Assembly (NCBI RefSeq): GCF_003428625.2
Contig: NZ_QVQT02000001.1
Coordinates: forward strand, 620,001 to 684,000
From: Paracidobacterium acidisoli
Lineage (GTDB): Bacteria; Acidobacteriota; Terriglobia; Terriglobales; Acidobacteriaceae
DNA: 64,000 nucleotides
Direction: 5' to 3'
This document shows positions 42,999 through 50,261 of the stretch, one piece after another. The position numbers were made by a program, and so were the translations under genes. Each line of letters starts with the position of its first letter. Position 1 is the stretch's first letter. The notes under the pieces were generated by a model. The model was not told where the DNA came from and did no database searches. It was given only the letters and a program-made list of their open reading frames with translations.

Positions 42999-43814
42999 TT
43001 ACTGCAGGAGCTTCGTGACTTCCTGCTGTGCGCTGTTGGCCTGGGCCAGAGCGCTGATGCCTGCCTGGTTGAGGATCTCGAACTTCGAGAGGTTGGAGGT
43101 TGCGGTTGCGTAGTTGGTCGCGATCACGTCGTTTTCGGCCGACATGGTGTTGGTCGACTCCGTGCTCTCGACATTCGAGACGGCCTGCAGCTGGTTGATG
43201 TCCGCACCGGCCGTGCCGCGTGAAGCCGCCACGGTGGCAATCGCCGTCGTGATCAGGCCTTCTTCGGTCTGCGCCTCCGCGCTGGTGGTGAAGCCGGCTG
43301 CGGTCAGACCCAGGGTCGCCGCAGCGGTTGCGCCCAGAGCCGTGGTGTCATACGACTGGCTCAGCGTGCCGTCGGAGGTATAGACATTGGCCGCCTTCGT
43401 GAAGACATTCAGACCGTTGTACTCCGTATCGGTGCTGATGTCGGTGATCTCGGTCTGGATGTTCAGATACTCGGCATTGGCCGCCGTGATCTGATCGCTG
43501 TTCAGCGTGCCGTTGCCGGCTTCGGTCGACAGCGTGACGGCGCGGTTCAGCAGGCTGGTGATCTGCGACAGCGCTCCGTCGGCCACCTGCAGAAAGTCCA
43601 CGCCCTCATCGGCGTTGTTGGTCGACTGCGTCAGCGCGGTCGAGGAAGCGGTAAGACCGTCGGCCAGCGAGAGGCCCGCGGCATCGTCGGCGCCGGAGTT
43701 GATGCGCTGTCCGGAGGAGAGCTGCTCGAGCGTGTTCTGCAGGCCGAGCTGCGTGTTGTTGAGATTGTTGGAAGCGTAGACCGCTGCGATATTGTTCAGG
43801 ACACCCAAAGACAT
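42999..43814 (-). CDS. fliC: Flagellin
   Basis: 271 residues, a minimal flagellin. The conserved N-terminal domain is intact (NNIAAVYASNNLN, LEQLSSGQRINSGADDAAGLSLAD) and the C-terminal one ends with ISALAQANSAQQEVTKLLQ. Only a short Thr/Ala-rich variable middle (D2/D3) remains. ATG 43814 is chosen (GGAAG in front); an open stretch continues to 44111 but is the leader of a sigma-54 promoter. Exported through the flagellar type III system as filament subunit, with FliS as chaperone. Confidence 0.93.
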   Translation of the reverse strand: MSLGVLNNIAAVYASNNLNNTQLGLQNTLEQLSSGQRINSGADDAAGLSLADGLTASSTALTQSTNNADEGVDFLQVADGALSQITSLLNRAVTLSTEAGNGTLNSDQITAANAEYLNIQTEITDISTDTEYNGLNVFTKAANVYTSDGTLSQSYDTTALGATAAATLGLTAAGFTTSAEAQTEEGLITTAIATVAASRGTAGADINQLQAVSNVESTESTNTMSAENDVIATNYATATSNLSKFEILNQAGISALAQANSAQQEVTKLLQ

Positions 43815-43995
43815 ATCTTCCGTTCCTCGTTTCGTTTGATTTCCGGTGTTTGTTCCGGGCTCCTTCTTCCGGGTGCCTGACCGGTACAAAAGCGCGCTGC
43901 TCCGTACCGGGTCACCGCTTTGACAGGAACCACGTTGCCCACTGCCTTCATCGGCAGCCTCCACAGGCGCTTTACCGGCGCCCTCCCGGTTTGGC

Positions 43996-44012
43996 ATGCA
44001 ACGTGCGTGCCC
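43996..44012 (-). promoter_or_regulatory. Sigma-54 (-24/-12) promoter for flagellin
   Basis: Read on the minus strand, GGCACG-CACG-TTGCAT matches the RpoN consensus (TGGCACG-N4-TTGCW) almost perfectly, with GG and GC 10 nt apart. It would give a leader of about 170 nt before the fliC ATG. The element is near-palindromic: on the plus strand TGGCATG-CAAC-GTGC also keeps GG-N10-GC and could drive flbD-motA-motB about 100 nt downstream. Confidence 0.75.
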
Positions 44013-44109
44013 CCTCTGCCCACGCCGGCTCCATAGCCCTGTCGCAGCCTTCTTCGTCAACCTTTCCGCTGTACCGCCGATAAGCCCACCACAGGGAGGC
44101 AGCCACCGC

Positions 44110-44433
44110 ATGATTCAGGTAGCGCGGCTCAACGGAAACCCGCTGGTCGTCAACAGCGATCTGATTCGCTATGTCGAATCCGCACCGGATACGACGATCA
44201 CACTCATCAACGGGGAAAAGATTGTCGTGCTCGAAAGCTGCGACGAGGTCGTGAGCCGCACCATCGCATGGCGCGCGCGGCTGCTGAGCGAGGCCGCAAA
44301 GCTTTCCCCCGCCGCCGCATGGTGGATGGCTCCGGTCTCGGCCATCCAGGCGGTCGCCGAGGCCGGCGCAGAGCAGGACGAGGAGATGGAGTCCGGCTCC
44401 GCCGCGGCCCAGCGCCGCCGCTCCGATTCGTAG
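44110..44433 (+). CDS. flbD: FlbD-family small flagellar protein
   Basis: 107 residues. The core (first about 65) matches the FlbD family: MIQVARLNGNPLVVNSDLI then VESAPDTTITLINGEKI and VVLESCDEVV. The family normally ends near residue 70-80; here an Ala/Glu-rich tail is added. It is found in flagellar operons of many phyla; its exact role is unclear and it is not the Caulobacter sigma-54 activator of the same name. ATG 44110. motA follows after 117 nt. Confidence 0.8.
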   Translation: MIQVARLNGNPLVVNSDLIRYVESAPDTTITLINGEKIVVLESCDEVVSRTIAWRARLLSEAAKLSPAAAWWMAPVSAIQAVAEAGAEQDEEMESGSAAAQRRRSDS

Positions 44434-44550
44434 CCGGCGCCACACCACAGTGATTACGCAGGACAGGATTCGCAGCAGAGGGCTGTGAAGAAGTCCGGGA
44501 CAGTTTGGAAAGCTCGAAAGAAGTTCGTCAGTATTCGGAGAGAGAAAGGC

Positions 44551-45330
44551 ATGGATACAGCAAGTCTTGGAGGCATTCTGCTGGCGCTTGTCGGTATTCT
44601 GGCCGGCCTGTTGCTTGAGGGCGGCCACATCGGCCAGATTCTGCAGCCCACCGCGGCCATGATCGTCTTCGGAGGCACCCTCGGCGCGGTGATGCTGCAG
44701 TTCCCTCTGCGGACGGTGCTGGCCGCATGCCGGCGGCTGGTGCGCATCTTCTTTCACGGCAAAGACAGCGGCGAGGCCACGCTGCAGCAGATCGTGCGCT
44801 TCGCCAACAAGGCGCGGCGCAGCGGCATCGTCTCGCTCGATCAGGATCTGTCCACCATCGAAGATCCTTTTCTCCGCCAGGCCGTCATGCTGGCCGTCGA
44901 CGGCACCGAGCCCGCCGAGCTGCGCCGCATCATGGAGCTCGAGATGGACAACCACACCGAGATCGAGGAGAAGATTCCCGCCGTCTTTGAATCCGCCGGA
45001 GGCTTCGCCCCCACCATCGGCATTCTCGGCGCCGTGATGGGGCTGATCCAGGTCATGCAGCACCTCGATCACATCGACGAAGTGGGCAAGGGCATCGCCG
45101 TGGCCTTCGTCGCCACCATCTACGGCGTGGCCTCGGCCAATCTCTTCTTTCTTCCCGTCGCCGGCAAGCTGAAGCACCGCATCCATGAAGAGCAGTTCGT
45201 GCGGCACATGATGCTCGAAGGCATCGTCTCCATCCTCGAAGGAATGAACCCGCGCATTCTCGAGGTGAAGCTGGAGAGCTTTCTGACCTCGCCGCGCGCC
45301 AAAGGCAAAGAGGAGAGCAAACCGGCATGA
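44551..45330 (+). CDS. motA: Flagellar motor stator protein MotA
   Basis: 259 residues, four membrane helices. The N-terminal helix carries [18 protein letters not shown] and the end has the GFAPTIGILGAVMGLIQVM helix lining the proton channel. The large cytoplasmic loop (about 65-145) includes the basic and acidic residues that contact FliG. ATG 44551, with AGAGAAAGG just before. It overlaps motB by four bases (ATGA), the usual stator arrangement. Confidence 0.93.
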   Translation: MDTASLGGILLALVGILAGLLLEGGHIGQILQPTAAMIVFGGTLGAVMLQFPLRTVLAACRRLVRIFFHGKDSGEATLQQIVRFANKARRSGIVSLDQDLSTIEDPFLRQAVMLAVDGTEPAELRRIMELEMDNHTEIEEKIPAVFESAGGFAPTIGILGAVMGLIQVMQHLDHIDEVGKGIAVAFVATIYGVASANLFFLPVAGKLKHRIHEEQFVRHMMLEGIVSILEGMNPRILEVKLESFLTSPRAKGKEESKPA

Positions 45331-46235
45331 GGCGGCGCAGGCGCGGACACAATCCGGGGCATGAGCGCTGGCTGGTCTCCTATGCCGACTTCATCACGCT
45401 GCTCTTCGCCTTCTTTGTCGTGCTCTACGCCAGCTCGCGGGCCGATCAGAAGAAGCAGGCGCAGATCTCCCAGGCCATCCACTCCGCCTTTCAGGTGCTC
45501 GGCCTCTTCCCCGCGTCCTCGTCGAAGACGCCCGACGGAAAGGCGACAAAGACCCCGGATCAGTCCGTGATGCCGGTCAACATCATCCTCGGAGACGATC
45601 TGGCCGCCTCGCCGCGCGCGCTCGAAGACTTCGAGCGGATACGCAGAAAGCTCGCGGACCGGCTCTCCAACCAGATCGCCACGCATATCGTCGCGCTGCG
45701 CATCGGGCGCGAGGGACTCGTGATCTCACTGCGCGAGGCAGGCTTCTATGACAGCGGATCGGCGGTGCCGCACCGCTCCTCGCAGTCCAGTCTCGATCAG
45801 ATCGCTGAAGTGCTCGCCGCCAGTCCGTGGGACATCCGCATCGAGGGACACACCGACAACGTGCCCATCCACACCGCGCAGTTCGACTCCAACTGGGAGC
45901 TCTCGACGGCGCGCGCCAGCGAGCTGGCCCGCTTCTTCATTCTGCGCCATACCATCGCGCCGCAGCGTCTCTCCGCCTCGGGCTATGCGGAGTTCCATCC
46001 CGTCGCCAGCAATGCCACGCCGGAGGGCCGCGCCGTCAACCGCCGCGTCGATATCATCGTTCTGCCGCGCATCAGCGGCACGCCGTCTGCGTCCCCGGCC
46101 ACACAAACCCAGACGCAGCCTCAGCCTCCAGTCCAGCCACAGACTCAGGCCCAGGCGCAGGCCGTATCGCAGCTCGCGCATCTTCCCTCAGCGCCTCTGC
46201 CCGCTCACGACAGCCCTCGCCGCAACCAGCCCTGA
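45327..46235 (+). CDS. motB: Flagellar motor stator protein MotB
   Basis: 302 residues. One N-terminal membrane helix with the ion-binding Asp in SYADFITLLFAFFVVLYA (the D equivalent to E. coli D32), a plug region, and an OmpA-like peptidoglycan-binding domain (about 115-235) with IEGHTDNVPIH and ASGYAEFHPVASN. A Gln/Pro-rich tail follows (PQPPVQPQTQ). It anchors the stator to the cell wall. Overlaps motA. Confidence 0.92.
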   Translation: MRRRRRGHNPGHERWLVSYADFITLLFAFFVVLYASSRADQKKQAQISQAIHSAFQVLGLFPASSSKTPDGKATKTPDQSVMPVNIILGDDLAASPRALEDFERIRRKLADRLSNQIATHIVALRIGREGLVISLREAGFYDSGSAVPHRSSQSSLDQIAEVLAASPWDIRIEGHTDNVPIHTAQFDSNWELSTARASELARFFILRHTIAPQRLSASGYAEFHPVASNATPEGRAVNRRVDIIVLPRISGTPSASPATQTQTQPQPPVQPQTQAQAQAVSQLAHLPSAPLPAHDSPRRNQP

Positions 46236-47123: not shown

Positions 47124-47756
47124 ATGCCTTCCATTCTCAACGCAGCCACCACCAGCGCCGGAAAGCTGCGCGACTTCTCCGCCGCGGCCGGCCACAGCGG
47201 TATCCGCATCGAGCCGCTCCCCGGACTCCGCGATATCCCCGCGCCGGAAGAAGACCAGCCCACCTTCGAAGGCAACGCGCGGCTCAAGGCGGCATACTAC
47301 AGCCGCTTCGCGCCCGATCTTCTGGTGCTTGCCGACGATTCCGGTCTCGAGGTCGACGCGCTCTCCGGGCATCCCGGCGTCCGCTCCGCGCGTTATGCCG
47401 CCGATGCCGGTTTTTCCCCCGCAGGCGTCGCCACGCTCGACGAGCGCAACAATCTTTACCTGCTCGAACAGATGAAGAACATCGCCGCTGAAGTCCGCAC
47501 CGCCCGCTACCGCTGCGTCCTTGCCGTGGCCCGCGGCGGGGAAGTCCTGGCGATCGGAGAAGGCGCTGTAGAAGGCAGCATTCTCACCGCACCCCGGGGA
47601 GACGGTGGATTCGGCTACGATCCGCTCTTCTGGCTGCCCGAGCTTCACAAAACGATGGCGGAAATCGATCCTGCGGCCAAAAACGGCTTCAGCCACCGGG
47701 GACGCGCTTTTTCAGCGCTGATCGCCGCGATGGCTGAGCAAAACGAGAAGATGTAA
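47124..47756 (+). CDS. rdgB: XTP/dITP pyrophosphatase RdgB (Ham1 family)
   Basis: 210 residues. It hydrolyses non-canonical purine triphosphates (dITP, XTP) to keep them out of DNA. Motifs: TTSAGKLRDF at the start (TxNxxK region), LADDSGLEVDALSGHPGVRSARYA and GDGGFGYDPLFW, then FSHRGRAFSAL. It starts 10 nt after the glycosylase stop, so the two form a DNA-hygiene operon: one removes damaged bases, the other cleans the nucleotide pool. Confidence 0.93.
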   Translation: MPSILNAATTSAGKLRDFSAAAGHSGIRIEPLPGLRDIPAPEEDQPTFEGNARLKAAYYSRFAPDLLVLADDSGLEVDALSGHPGVRSARYAADAGFSPAGVATLDERNNLYLLEQMKNIAAEVRTARYRCVLAVARGGEVLAIGEGAVEGSILTAPRGDGGFGYDPLFWLPELHKTMAEIDPAAKNGFSHRGRAFSALIAAMAEQNEKM

Positions 47757-47769
47757 AGCTGTGGTCTGC

Positions 47770-48306
47770 TTACGCGTAGTTCAGGGACTCTGCCAGACGG
47801 GGATAAAGTCCGCTGTGGCTGCCCTGATAAAGGGCCAGCAGTCTCTGCGACATCAGATGGTATGCCGTTGCCGCCTCGTGAATGTAGAACGGAATGCGAA
47901 TCGGCTTGCGCTGCAGCAGCATGCTGAAGCGAATACGGCGAATGGAGCGGCGGAGCTGCACCGCATCCCGGCGGATTCTCTCCGACACGATAGCCGCCTC
48001 TTCATAGTTCCAGCGCTGCACCCAGGCAGCAAGCTGAATCAGCACTTCGGCGTTTTTGTACATGCTGTCGAGGCCCTGTTTGCCGCCGACCAGCTGCCAC
48101 ATGTCGCCCGGCTCCAGCTCAATCTGGTTCTGGCCTGGCTGCAGGTTATCCATGGCAACGATCGAGATGCCCGAAAACGGGACAGGGACAATACGAGCTG
48201 CCAGTCCATCCCACGTCGCAGAGCGAAGCTTCTGGCTCGCAATCTGCGTATAGAGGAACCCGGCAACAACCAGTGCTACAAACACACCCAGAGCCACTAT
48301 CGACAT
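47770..48306 (-). CDS. Membrane-anchored protein, unknown function
   Basis: 178 residues. One N-terminal membrane helix (about 2-20, VALGVFVALVVAGFLYT) and a cytoplasmic or periplasmic domain of about 155 residues with helical, Arg-rich stretches (ERIRRDAVQLRRSIRRIRF) and Trp/Tyr-rich patches (WVQRWNY). No family recognised. It begins 11 nt after the stop of the 260-residue membrane protein, so the pair is an operon. Convergent with rdgB, 13 nt apart. Confidence 0.75.
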   Translation of the reverse strand: MSIVALGVFVALVVAGFLYTQIASQKLRSATWDGLAARIVPVPFSGISIVAMDNLQPGQNQIELEPGDMWQLVGGKQGLDSMYKNAEVLIQLAAWVQRWNYEEAAIVSERIRRDAVQLRRSIRRIRFSMLLQRKPIRIPFYIHEAATAYHLMSQRLLALYQGSHSGLYPRLAESLNYA

Positions 48307-48317
48307 AAATCCAACCT

Positions 48318-49100
48318 TTAAGTGTTGTGATTCCTGGGACCGCTTACGGCGCGCAATCCAAACTGCGTTTGCTGATGCAGGCTACGAAGGTAGTTCTGCA
48401 TATCGGGAGACAGTGTACGACTTTCCGGCTCAGGAAGCCAGAAAATTATTGCCCAGTAAACTGCAGCCAGATCATAGGCGACCAGCCGGATATGTTCCAG
48501 AGCATCGTAATGCCAGGTCTGGCCAAAATAGCTGTGAGCCGCTTCCACCAATAGCGCCACCACCGCCCAGGCGGCAAATCCCTGCCCCAGGCTCATCACG
48601 TAGTTACGCCACACCAGGCCAAGCTGGGTCGAAGCGAGCCGCATCGCCAGAAAAAGCTCGCACGTCAGCATGATGGAAAAGAGGTTAGCCCGGGAGATCC
48701 ACGAGCCCAAAGTGTGCGGAACGGTCGGATTAACCAGCCACACCACAAGCACCGCAACGACTGCGCCAGCCAGGCCCACGATAATGAAAAGCCGCCGTGC
48801 GTCCTGCACCCAGGTGCCGGTCGGCTTCAGAACATTGCGGGCGATCTCAAAAACCAGCGCCAGCTGCAGAACAAGGTCGAGGATGGAAGACGACCAGTAA
48901 GCCCCTGCGTAAATACCGGAGCTGCAAAAACGGTAGACGAAGTAAAGGACAATATCGAAAACGACGATCTCAAAACCGACCAGGGCGGTAAACACCGGAA
49001 ACTGCTTCCACCTGCCGCGAAAGAACAGCACGAGGAGCACGGCGGCGTTTCCGAGGAAACCCGCCGCCCACAACGCCCGATCAAGAAGAGAGAGCTGCAT
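48318..49100 (-). CDS. Polytopic membrane protein, unknown function
   Basis: 260 residues with about seven hydrophobic helices (first about 8-27, then about 36-56, 70-88, 104-124, 135-155, 165-185 and 207-223). The C-terminal 40 residues are soluble (PEPESRTLSPDM onwards). It resembles no family I know by motif; no transporter or receptor signature stands out. It is upstream of the 178-residue anchored protein and downstream of the secreted repeat peptide gene, all on the minus strand. Confidence 0.75.
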   Translation of the reverse strand: MQLSLLDRALWAAGFLGNAAVLLVLFFRGRWKQFPVFTALVGFEIVVFDIVLYFVYRFCSSGIYAGAYWSSSILDLVLQLALVFEIARNVLKPTGTWVQDARRLFIIVGLAGAVVAVLVVWLVNPTVPHTLGSWISRANLFSIMLTCELFLAMRLASTQLGLVWRNYVMSLGQGFAAWAVVALLVEAAHSYFGQTWHYDALEHIRLVAYDLAAVYWAIIFWLPEPESRTLSPDMQNYLRSLHQQTQFGLRAVSGPRNHNT

Positions 49101-49162
49101 CCCGTAACTATCTTACCTTTCCACAGCGATAGCTCAGGGTAGTTTCTCCTGCACCTAAAGTG

Positions 49163-49471
49163 CTATGCAGTCATAGCTGGAGGCAGCTTCGGAGACGGTG
49201 CTCCGCCACCCATCGGCACAGCGGCATAGCTCGGCGGCAGCTTCGGAGACGGCGCTCCACCACCCATTGGGACGGCGGCGTAGGACGGATCAGCAGTATA
49301 GCTCGGCGGGAGCTTCGGGGTTGGTGCTCCACCGCCCATCGGCACAGCGGCAAAAGATGGCGGCAGTTTCGGCGTCGGTGCACCACCTCCCATAGGAACG
49401 GCAGCATAGGCTCCGGTGCTAAGGATGAGGAGGGAGGCGGACAGGAACAGGTTGCGGGCGGAAAGGCTCAT
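49163..49471 (-). CDS. Secreted Pro/Gly-rich tandem-repeat peptide
   Basis: 102 residues. A Sec signal peptide (about 1-23, ending GAYA) is followed by four copies of an 18-residue unit AAVPMGGGAPSPKLPPSY, with T or S at position 11 and Y or F at the end, and a six-residue insert TADPSY between copies 2 and 3. GGAG lies 6 nt before the ATG. The DNA copies differ mostly at silent positions while the peptide stays constant. No known family; could be a structural, surface or processed peptide. First of a minus-strand run of three unrecognised genes. Confidence 0.8.
   Translation of the reverse strand: MSLSARNLFLSASLLILSTGAYAAVPMGGGAPTPKLPPSFAAVPMGGGAPTPKLPPSYTADPSYAAVPMGGGAPSPKLPPSYAAVPMGGGAPSPKLPPAMTA
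49172..49405 (-). repeat. 54-bp coding tandem repeat (four units)
   Basis: Four 54-bp units encode the repeated peptide. Codons vary between units (VPM is written GTT CCT ATG, GTG CCG ATG, GTC CCA ATG), so the units are old and held constant at protein level. An 18-bp insert lies after the second unit as read along the gene. Confidence 0.9.
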
Positions 49472-50261
49472 GAAAGGCTCCAGAGCGCGGCTGCGCTCAC
49501 TTCAAGAGTACTCCGCAAAGCACAGGAAACAAAGGGTTTTTACCTTTCATTTATGGCAACAACTTGTTTCTCGACTAAATTCCCCTCCCCGGAAACTTGA
49601 CCTTTCATTCATTTTGTGTTTTTCGTGCATTCCTAACGGGTTCTCTGGAATCCGTTCCAGGGTCACTCGATATGCATTTCGTCCAGCAATGACGCGGTCG
49701 TTTCCATGACATGAAAAAAGCGCACCGGTATACGGAACAGAGCAAAATCGTATGCCTGCGCTGTCATTCGCTTGTCCTCCGCCGTCCGGCAGGAAGCTGC
49801 ACCAAAAGTGGTATCTGGCGGGAGCAGCGCACTTTTCATATCGGATTCACGCCCTGTTCATCTCTGCCCGGGCCTGTATGCACCAGTTCCAGGGCTGTTG
49901 CCACGAGTTTTCCACAGGCGCGAAAATCGCCGCCGCCCTCGGTTTTCGGAACCGTTTCCGGAAAATTGCCGCTGCATGCCAACCCATTCTGCTGCAGCTT
50001 TCTTGACGATGATTCGTTTCAGAACCAATAATGAATCTTGACACTTCCAGCGCTTCAGCAAGAGCGATCCATGCAGTCTGCCTGGTGCCGGCTGCGATCA
50101 CCTCAGTCCTGCACCGCCAGGGTCCGGACAACCGGCCGGGTCTCCTTCGCGCGGGCACATAACCAGCCTTCCCTGCGATTCACCAGGTCGCGAAGGCGAG
50201 GAACCAGCGTGCGTACGATTCCATCAGTTGATATCCGATCAGATATCCGGGGGGTGCGACT
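49472..50261. other. Gene-free 790-bp spacer before sdhC
   Basis: No reading frame here has both a ribosome site and protein-like composition; the longest (49711-50031) is Ser/Pro/Cys-rich noise. It contains a repeated ACCTTTCATT (49542-49551 and 49600-49609) and a GATATCCG direct repeat (50230-50237 and 50242-50249) just before the sdhC start. It must hold promoters for sdh and for the divergent repeat-peptide gene, but I could not fix them. Confidence 0.55.

Follow-up and report, generated by a model that had tools for sequence, protein, structure and literature searches.

A repeat peptide, a seven-helix membrane protein and a membrane-anchored partner as a candidate peptide-signalling cassette of Acidobacteriaceae

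In a 64,000-nucleotide stretch of the Paracidobacterium acidisoli genome (the window), three consecutive genes of the minus strand encode a repeat-peptide precursor of 102 aa (49163..49471), a seven-helix (7TM) membrane protein of 260 aa (48318..49100) and a single-helix membrane protein of 178 aa (47770..48306). The first was assigned from its open reading frame (ORF), a signal-peptide-like N-terminus and four repeat copies; the second is a candidate peptide receptor by its ORF, structure model and family distribution, and the third, whose helical domain is probably cytoplasmic, is a candidate transducer by its ORF, model and 7TM adjacency. The original prediction of a peptide, a polytopic and an anchored protein in a row was borne out by the ORFs, both in coordinates and in the gaps of 62 nt (precursor to 7TM gene) and 11 nt (7TM to partner gene), and its statement that none of them is recognised agrees with the lack of any Pfam match for the three proteins at E up to 10. 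The topology is likewise seen in the structure models, with seven long helices and a C-terminal helix in the 7TM protein (pLDDT 90.5) and one N-terminal helix ahead of a helical domain in the partner (pLDDT 87.9). No terminator-like or sigma-70-like site was found on the minus strand in 47600-49900; since shuffles of this region expect only 2.6 terminator-like (mean, both strands) and 1.0 sigma-70-like sites (mean), the scan says little. Close to the cassette, at 42999-46235 of the window, the minus strand carries a flagellin-like gene and the plus strand carries genes resembling motA and motB, judging from the translations.

The precursor starts with a predicted Sec signal peptide (residues 1-23; 49403..49471, minus strand), for which a simple scoring script places the cut between GAYA and AVP, and copy 1 of the repeat begins directly after this cut (AVPMGGG). 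The four copies read from the sequence, all on the minus strand, are AVPMGGGAPTPKLPPSFA (49349..49402), AVPMGGGAPTPKLPPSYTADPSYA with a 6-residue insert (49277..49348), AVPMGGGAPSPKLPPSYA (49223..49276) and AVPMGGGAPSPKLPPAMTA (49166..49222). Four units of 18 residues had been predicted; the number stands, and the uniform spacing does not, as the copies follow each other at 18, 24 and 18 residues. The synonymous difference among them is 0.60 per site (pS) compared with a non-synonymous difference of 0.10 (pN), by which measure the repeat exceeds chance. When the peptide sequence was searched in 100 relatives, no convincing homologue was obtained (3 genomes at E<=0.001, own genome included). 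The same genome has a second cassette (L053:11090-12986), whose AMIPSTPAPVPPPS repeats reach the contig end and are partly masked.

Judged by its relatives, the window trio is one copy of an Acidobacteriaceae cassette, the extent of which the original prediction understated. Using a profile of 21 diverse 7TM proteins, the family was detected in 285 of 300 Acidobacteriaceae genomes, with Acidipila rosea (DSM 103428, L107), Edaphobacter lichenicola (X5P2, L112) and a Granulicella among the named carriers, and single-protein searches of 100 related genomes returned the 7TM protein in 49 and the partner in 11. In a phylum-wide sample, 31 of 247 genomes matched the profile; 25 of them were Acidobacteriaceae, and the other six matches were weak (E 6e-8 to 8e-4). 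One genome from another family of the same class matched the 7TM protein at E 1.1e-6. In the samples searched, almost all Acidobacteriaceae appear to have the family, and other groups appear to have it rarely or not at all. The partner keeps its place as well: of its 17 matches in the 100 related genomes, 15 adjoin a 7TM match, it lies directly downstream of the 7TM gene in all 25 named loci, and its profile matches downstream of 99 of the 128 7TM genes surveyed below.

The resemblance to systems of a peptide and a membrane partner, which had first been suggested from adjacency and topology, is supported by a peptide gene of the same build adjoining the 7TM gene almost everywhere we looked; on sequence criteria, a small signal-peptide gene seems nearly always to lie beside the 7TM gene, and the single-helix partner usually. 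The upstream survey took in 128 distinct 7TM genes that encode no more than 275 aa and have 400 nt or more of sequence in front of them. A signal-peptide-like ORF with P.P or repeats, features that the picker favours, was present within 330 nt upstream in 109 of them, and the rest are 5 genes with a repeat ORF truncated at a contig end (one of these ORFs is masked as well), 7 with another small signal-peptide ORF, 6 that are second members of tandem 7TM pairs and 1 without a peptide ORF. Two tandem 7TM genes behind one peptide gene, perhaps a receptor pair, occur at L068, L145, L175, L185 (genus g9) and L060 (g34). An earlier looser scan, with a signal-peptide ORF at 97 of 320 control genes, was replaced by a uniform test requiring a signal-peptide-like ORF that ends at most 200 nt upstream and whose mature part contains P.P or has a 7-mer more than once. 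This test was passed by 102 of the 128 7TM genes and by 42 of 320 other genes drawn from 46 sources, partner genes among them. By tandem repeat alone the figures were 48 of 128 and 0 of 320, and by a signal-peptide-like ORF alone 114 of 128 and 109 of 320.

The peptide varies by locus, but most versions keep a Gly/Pro core, which is GxxPxP or, among distant members, G..C..C. Upstream of 7TM genes, arrays reach up to 23 copies, examples being AFPMGTNPLPRVNEA (seven copies, at a locus with the same 7TM protein as Acidipila rosea DSM 103428), AKGIIGSLPRPAGTLQ (eight), APGTSHSPWGCLQA (four) and ITGSDPRPPKSSVVVAG (twelve), and single copies are exemplified by ..MSGGNPHP.. with a hydrophobic tail and by ..ADGGAPMPGCSACK. 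Single-copy forms of the tail type end in a hydrophobic stretch, and the G, P and P of GxxPxP are invariant in 17 such peptides, which is partly circular as the picker favoured P.P; in 13 Cys-type peptides, G, C and C are invariant in the mature part. At L057:4518-5188, one 7TM gene has upstream of it three peptide genes in tandem, whose 59-aa products are nearly identical, a case of whole-gene duplication in place of intragenic repeats.

Long 7TM proteins (>275 aa) at first gave the impression of lacking a peptide, which was overturned by small, mostly Cys-type genes nearby. Such a gene lies 129-357 nt downstream or just upstream in 24 of 26 cases (looser filter, 7TM loci only), or in 19 of 21 when five loci brought in by the peptide search are set aside; of two further cases, one has a peptide gene and the other, the third 7TM gene of the window genome (L290, 285 aa), has no convincing one beside it. 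At L215, three peptide genes of the kind described for L057 stand downstream of a long 7TM gene. In the Cys-type group, the ORF at the partner position is a distant relative of the partner (13 ORFs; profile comparison probability 81, E 1.2e-5, 13% identity). The association was also approached from the peptide side, by searching 100 genomes with peptide-only profiles made from 17 of 27 tail-type and 13 of 14 Cys-type peptides. With the Cys-type profile, 30 of 49 matches were examined for neighbours (flanks about 1.5 kb); 27 of the 30 loci carry a 7TM gene, as do 20 of 23 without the seven seed-peptide loci, and the three loci without it matched at E 7.7e-4 or worse. The tail-type profile is weak, with a 7TM gene at 11 of 25 examined loci and, without seed and sister loci, at 6 of 20, the 14 misses being at E 8.8e-5 or worse; all six loci at E<=1.2e-7 have the 7TM gene, five of these being seeds or tandem sisters.

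Selection on the copies is visible beyond the window. Copies within precursors differ at pS 0.313 and pN 0.065, and pN is below pS in 40 of the 41 precursors with differences; because silent differences are many and coding ones few, the copies had time to diverge and were kept alike as peptides. To explain the tandem-array form, found in 49 of 123 classified loci, a quickly built 7TM tree requires 13 changes, nine or more of them forced by well supported branches; a few script-set labels of this tree are wrong (L185_2311 and L068_1129, second members of tandem 7TM pairs whose supposed peptide is 7TM sequence, and L170, set as single, which has two copies). In close pairs, those with a 7TM identity of at least 75% (23 pairs, not independent of each other), the mature peptide changes faster than the signal peptide (0.73-0.84 vs 0.91-0.94), and this was not seen in more distant pairs. 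The units line up with the predicted signal-peptidase site in only 13 of 44 arrays. In these selected 13, a small residue (A, V, S, T, G or C) stands three before the junction in 88%, and Ala immediately precedes it in 48%, compared with a 15% Ala background, which is only a hint of signal-peptidase-like junctions between copies. The same peptides could be thought of as a structural or envelope component without any signal, either as a surface peptide rich in Pro and Gly or as a small part of a 7TM complex. Pro/Gly repeats are known from structural proteins, and the hydrophobic end of the tail-type forms could hold them in the membrane beside the 7TM protein; however, arrays without such a tail exist, copies are conserved within a precursor while the units differ among loci, and the small gene stays next to the 7TM gene, so that we regard this explanation as quite improbable.

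For the 7TM protein, no significant match was found in Pfam, NCBIfam, PHROGs or PDB sequences, and its 21 relatives gave scattered Pfam matches only (best E 0.06). Among these 21 diverse proteins, only W164 and G174 are invariant, with P35, F37, Y64, E85 and W216 nearly so, and no invariant set of catalytic-looking residues or recognisable protease site was seen. Polar residues including E85, R88, D100, E148, R165, H167 and H242 are conserved in closer relatives of the window protein, and an enzyme role is therefore still conceivable. The 7TM protein and its partner might accordingly export or process the peptide, as AgrB exports or processes AgrD, with the receptor elsewhere. Such a function would be expected to show the same adjacency and gene order, would provide the cutting that arrays require, and would fit both these polar residues and the absence of a widely recurring output gene beside the cassette. 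We nevertheless consider it unlikely, given that neither a protease site in the 21 proteins nor a significant family match was recognised, and that the peptides have Sec-type signal peptides, so that a dedicated exporter is unneeded.

When the 7TM model was compared with PDB using Foldseek, nothing was obtained at E<=0.001 (best 0.02), and GPCRs and microbial rhodopsins headed the list, which also had some unrelated rows. A second aligner, which re-ranks Foldseek's own candidates, gave 50 best rows that are all GPCR domains by title or recall (179-207 residues aligned, 3.5-5.7 A), at Z 13.8-10.7, where helical bundles may reach about 13 by arrangement alone; the top row is LYCHOS/GPR155 (Z 13.8, 189 residues, 3.8 A). 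The model thus appears to resemble GPCR domains best, at scores that unrelated helical bundles can reach. A viral fold library contained nothing at E<=0.001; its weak rows included receptor-like proteins of herpesviruses, membrane proteins of phages and a lysoplasmalogenase (E 0.12). Basic residues sit in the loops that follow helices 1, 3 and 5, which by the positive-inside rule would place the N-terminus outside and the C-terminus inside. Across 128 proteins, variability is greater in the outer 40% of the helices than in the inner 40% (2.90 vs 2.29 bits, p 3.6e-6), a pattern that may be common to many membrane proteins. In a partial Mantel test with 78 peptides, the core co-varied with the outer helix half at r 0.26 and with the inner half at 0.10; covariation of peptide and receptor was rejected as evidence, since it was not significant with 47 variability-matched position pairs (59 of 300 random swaps were as large). 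Fold searches with the partner returned only common helical bundles and no informative match, and basic residues after its helix suggest that the helical domain is probably cytoplasmic.

Among 46 sources, the only widely recurring neighbours are the 7TM (42) and partner (34) genes. The next widest clusters cover 12, 9, 8 and 7 loci, of which the three largest come mostly from genomes closely related to each other (L111-L127), and no widespread kinase or regulator gene was found beside the cassette (46 sources; genes of 80 aa or more). A NarL-like regulator gene, presumably a NarL-like response regulator, lies near the cassette in 5 of the 46 loci (L062, L067, L069, L070 and L071), and four of these five (not L069) also have a short gene that we take to be PilZ-like.

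Cassettes are also found on two Acidisarcina polymorpha plasmids, pACPOL1 (L233:3727-5364) and pACPOL3 (L234:3736-5350), with the peptides GGTNPRP and GGGAPRP; the 7TM frame of pACPOL1 looks broken, and the annotated partner of pACPOL3 is short. In the jumbo phage Tunturi_5 (a Tunturiibacter phage, PP885688.1), gp204 is a 7TM relative (25.6% identity, E 7e-5), and an unannotated signal-peptide-like ORF of 103 aa lies just upstream, overlapping the annotated start of gp204 (L232:3658-4858). In this single case, the phage may carry its own peptide-receptor pair. Weak matches of gp204 were a PorU sortase model (E 0.0038, 14.9 bits vs a cut-off of 420) and an unknown PHROG (E 0.0084), and a scan of viral contigs found no relative. 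Plasmid-borne cassettes and a fast-changing peptide paired with a membrane protein would also suit an antimicrobial or contact toxin, for which the 7TM protein, with its partner, provides immunity. We hold this to be very improbable, considering that a near-universal 7TM protein (285 of 300 genomes) would be unusual for a bacteriocin, that arrays reach 23 copies, that a second, probably cytoplasmic partner is conserved, and that the short Gly/Pro core does not look membrane-active.

Among the roles first offered for the membrane proteins (to process, export, sense or be protected from the peptide), sensing fits best. We propose, as a rather probable reading, that the trio is a peptide-signalling cassette composed of a secreted peptide ligand, a stand-alone 7TM receptor and a membrane-anchored cytoplasmic transducer. 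This reading draws on gene order and its conservation, on signal-peptide-like N-termini, on the repeats with the selection that acts on them, on the core motif and on the seven-helix model. We infer the further steps, namely that single copies are released and bound, that the proteins have the orientation given below, and that a signal is relayed to an output. The precursor would be exported by Sec, its mature part being one or several short Gly/Pro peptides with the core GxxPxP, and the copies would be released outside the inner membrane. A released peptide would bind the 7TM receptor, N-terminus out and C-terminus in, which would alter the state of the membrane-anchored helical partner in the cytoplasm, and the partner would pass the signal onward. 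With lineage-specific peptide sequences, each cassette could be a private channel. In its widest form, the proposal is a private-channel peptide language of the Acidobacteriaceae, with a large Gly/Pro peptide repertoire (>100 candidates), many of them multi-copy, each with its own stand-alone 7TM receptor of GPCR-like build and a membrane-anchored cytoplasmic relay, and with plasmids and perhaps jumbo phage having pairs of their own; this we put forward tentatively, with slightly more doubt than conviction.

Acidobacteriaceae are abundant soil bacteria, and on this reading the cassettes would offer about a hundred candidate pairs of peptide and receptor, open to testing with synthetic peptides. 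Such a design is not known to us from any bacterial system, and together with the lack of a family match this is the reason for suggesting a new kind of system; a literature search found no description of one, as judged on titles and abstract starts, with most subscription papers and bioRxiv preprints outside the search. If the function is ordinary quorum sensing, the cassette would be less of a departure and rather a new form of familiar signalling.

Several known systems can be compared with the cassette. In the Agr system of Gram-positive bacteria, a small peptide gene lies beside membrane-protein genes and the peptide varies by lineage, and the cassette is alike in both respects. Unlike Agr, its peptide has a Sec-type signal peptide, no AgrB-family protease was matched in Pfam or NCBIfam, and no kinase gene recurs at the cassette, the NarL-like regulator being confined to the few loci named above. 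The seven helices of the model align in the same order as those of animal GPCRs and LYCHOS/GPR155, with a Foldseek result that is not significant, whereas a sequence relationship is not detectable, as no GPCR was matched in Pfam up to E 1 or in searches of PDB sequences up to E 10. We know of no G proteins for the cassette. The fungal alpha-factor precursor has a secretion signal followed by several short peptide copies, as described in two papers (PMC6265332, PMC10057649). By sequence, the window precursor is similar, with a signal-peptide-like N-terminus and four tandem copies, and the cassette, like the fungal system with its Ste2 receptor, has a seven-helix protein. In contrast to alpha-factor and Ste2, the window's peptide has no KR or RR (dibasic Kex2 sites), the 7TM protein has no Ste2-family match (window protein against Pfam at E up to 10, and 21 relatives), the peptide and 7TM genes are adjacent, and a third, single-helix gene belongs to the cassette. 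If our reading is correct, the Acidobacteriaceae would have a near-universal peptide language, a bacterial parallel to yeast pheromones from unrelated parts.
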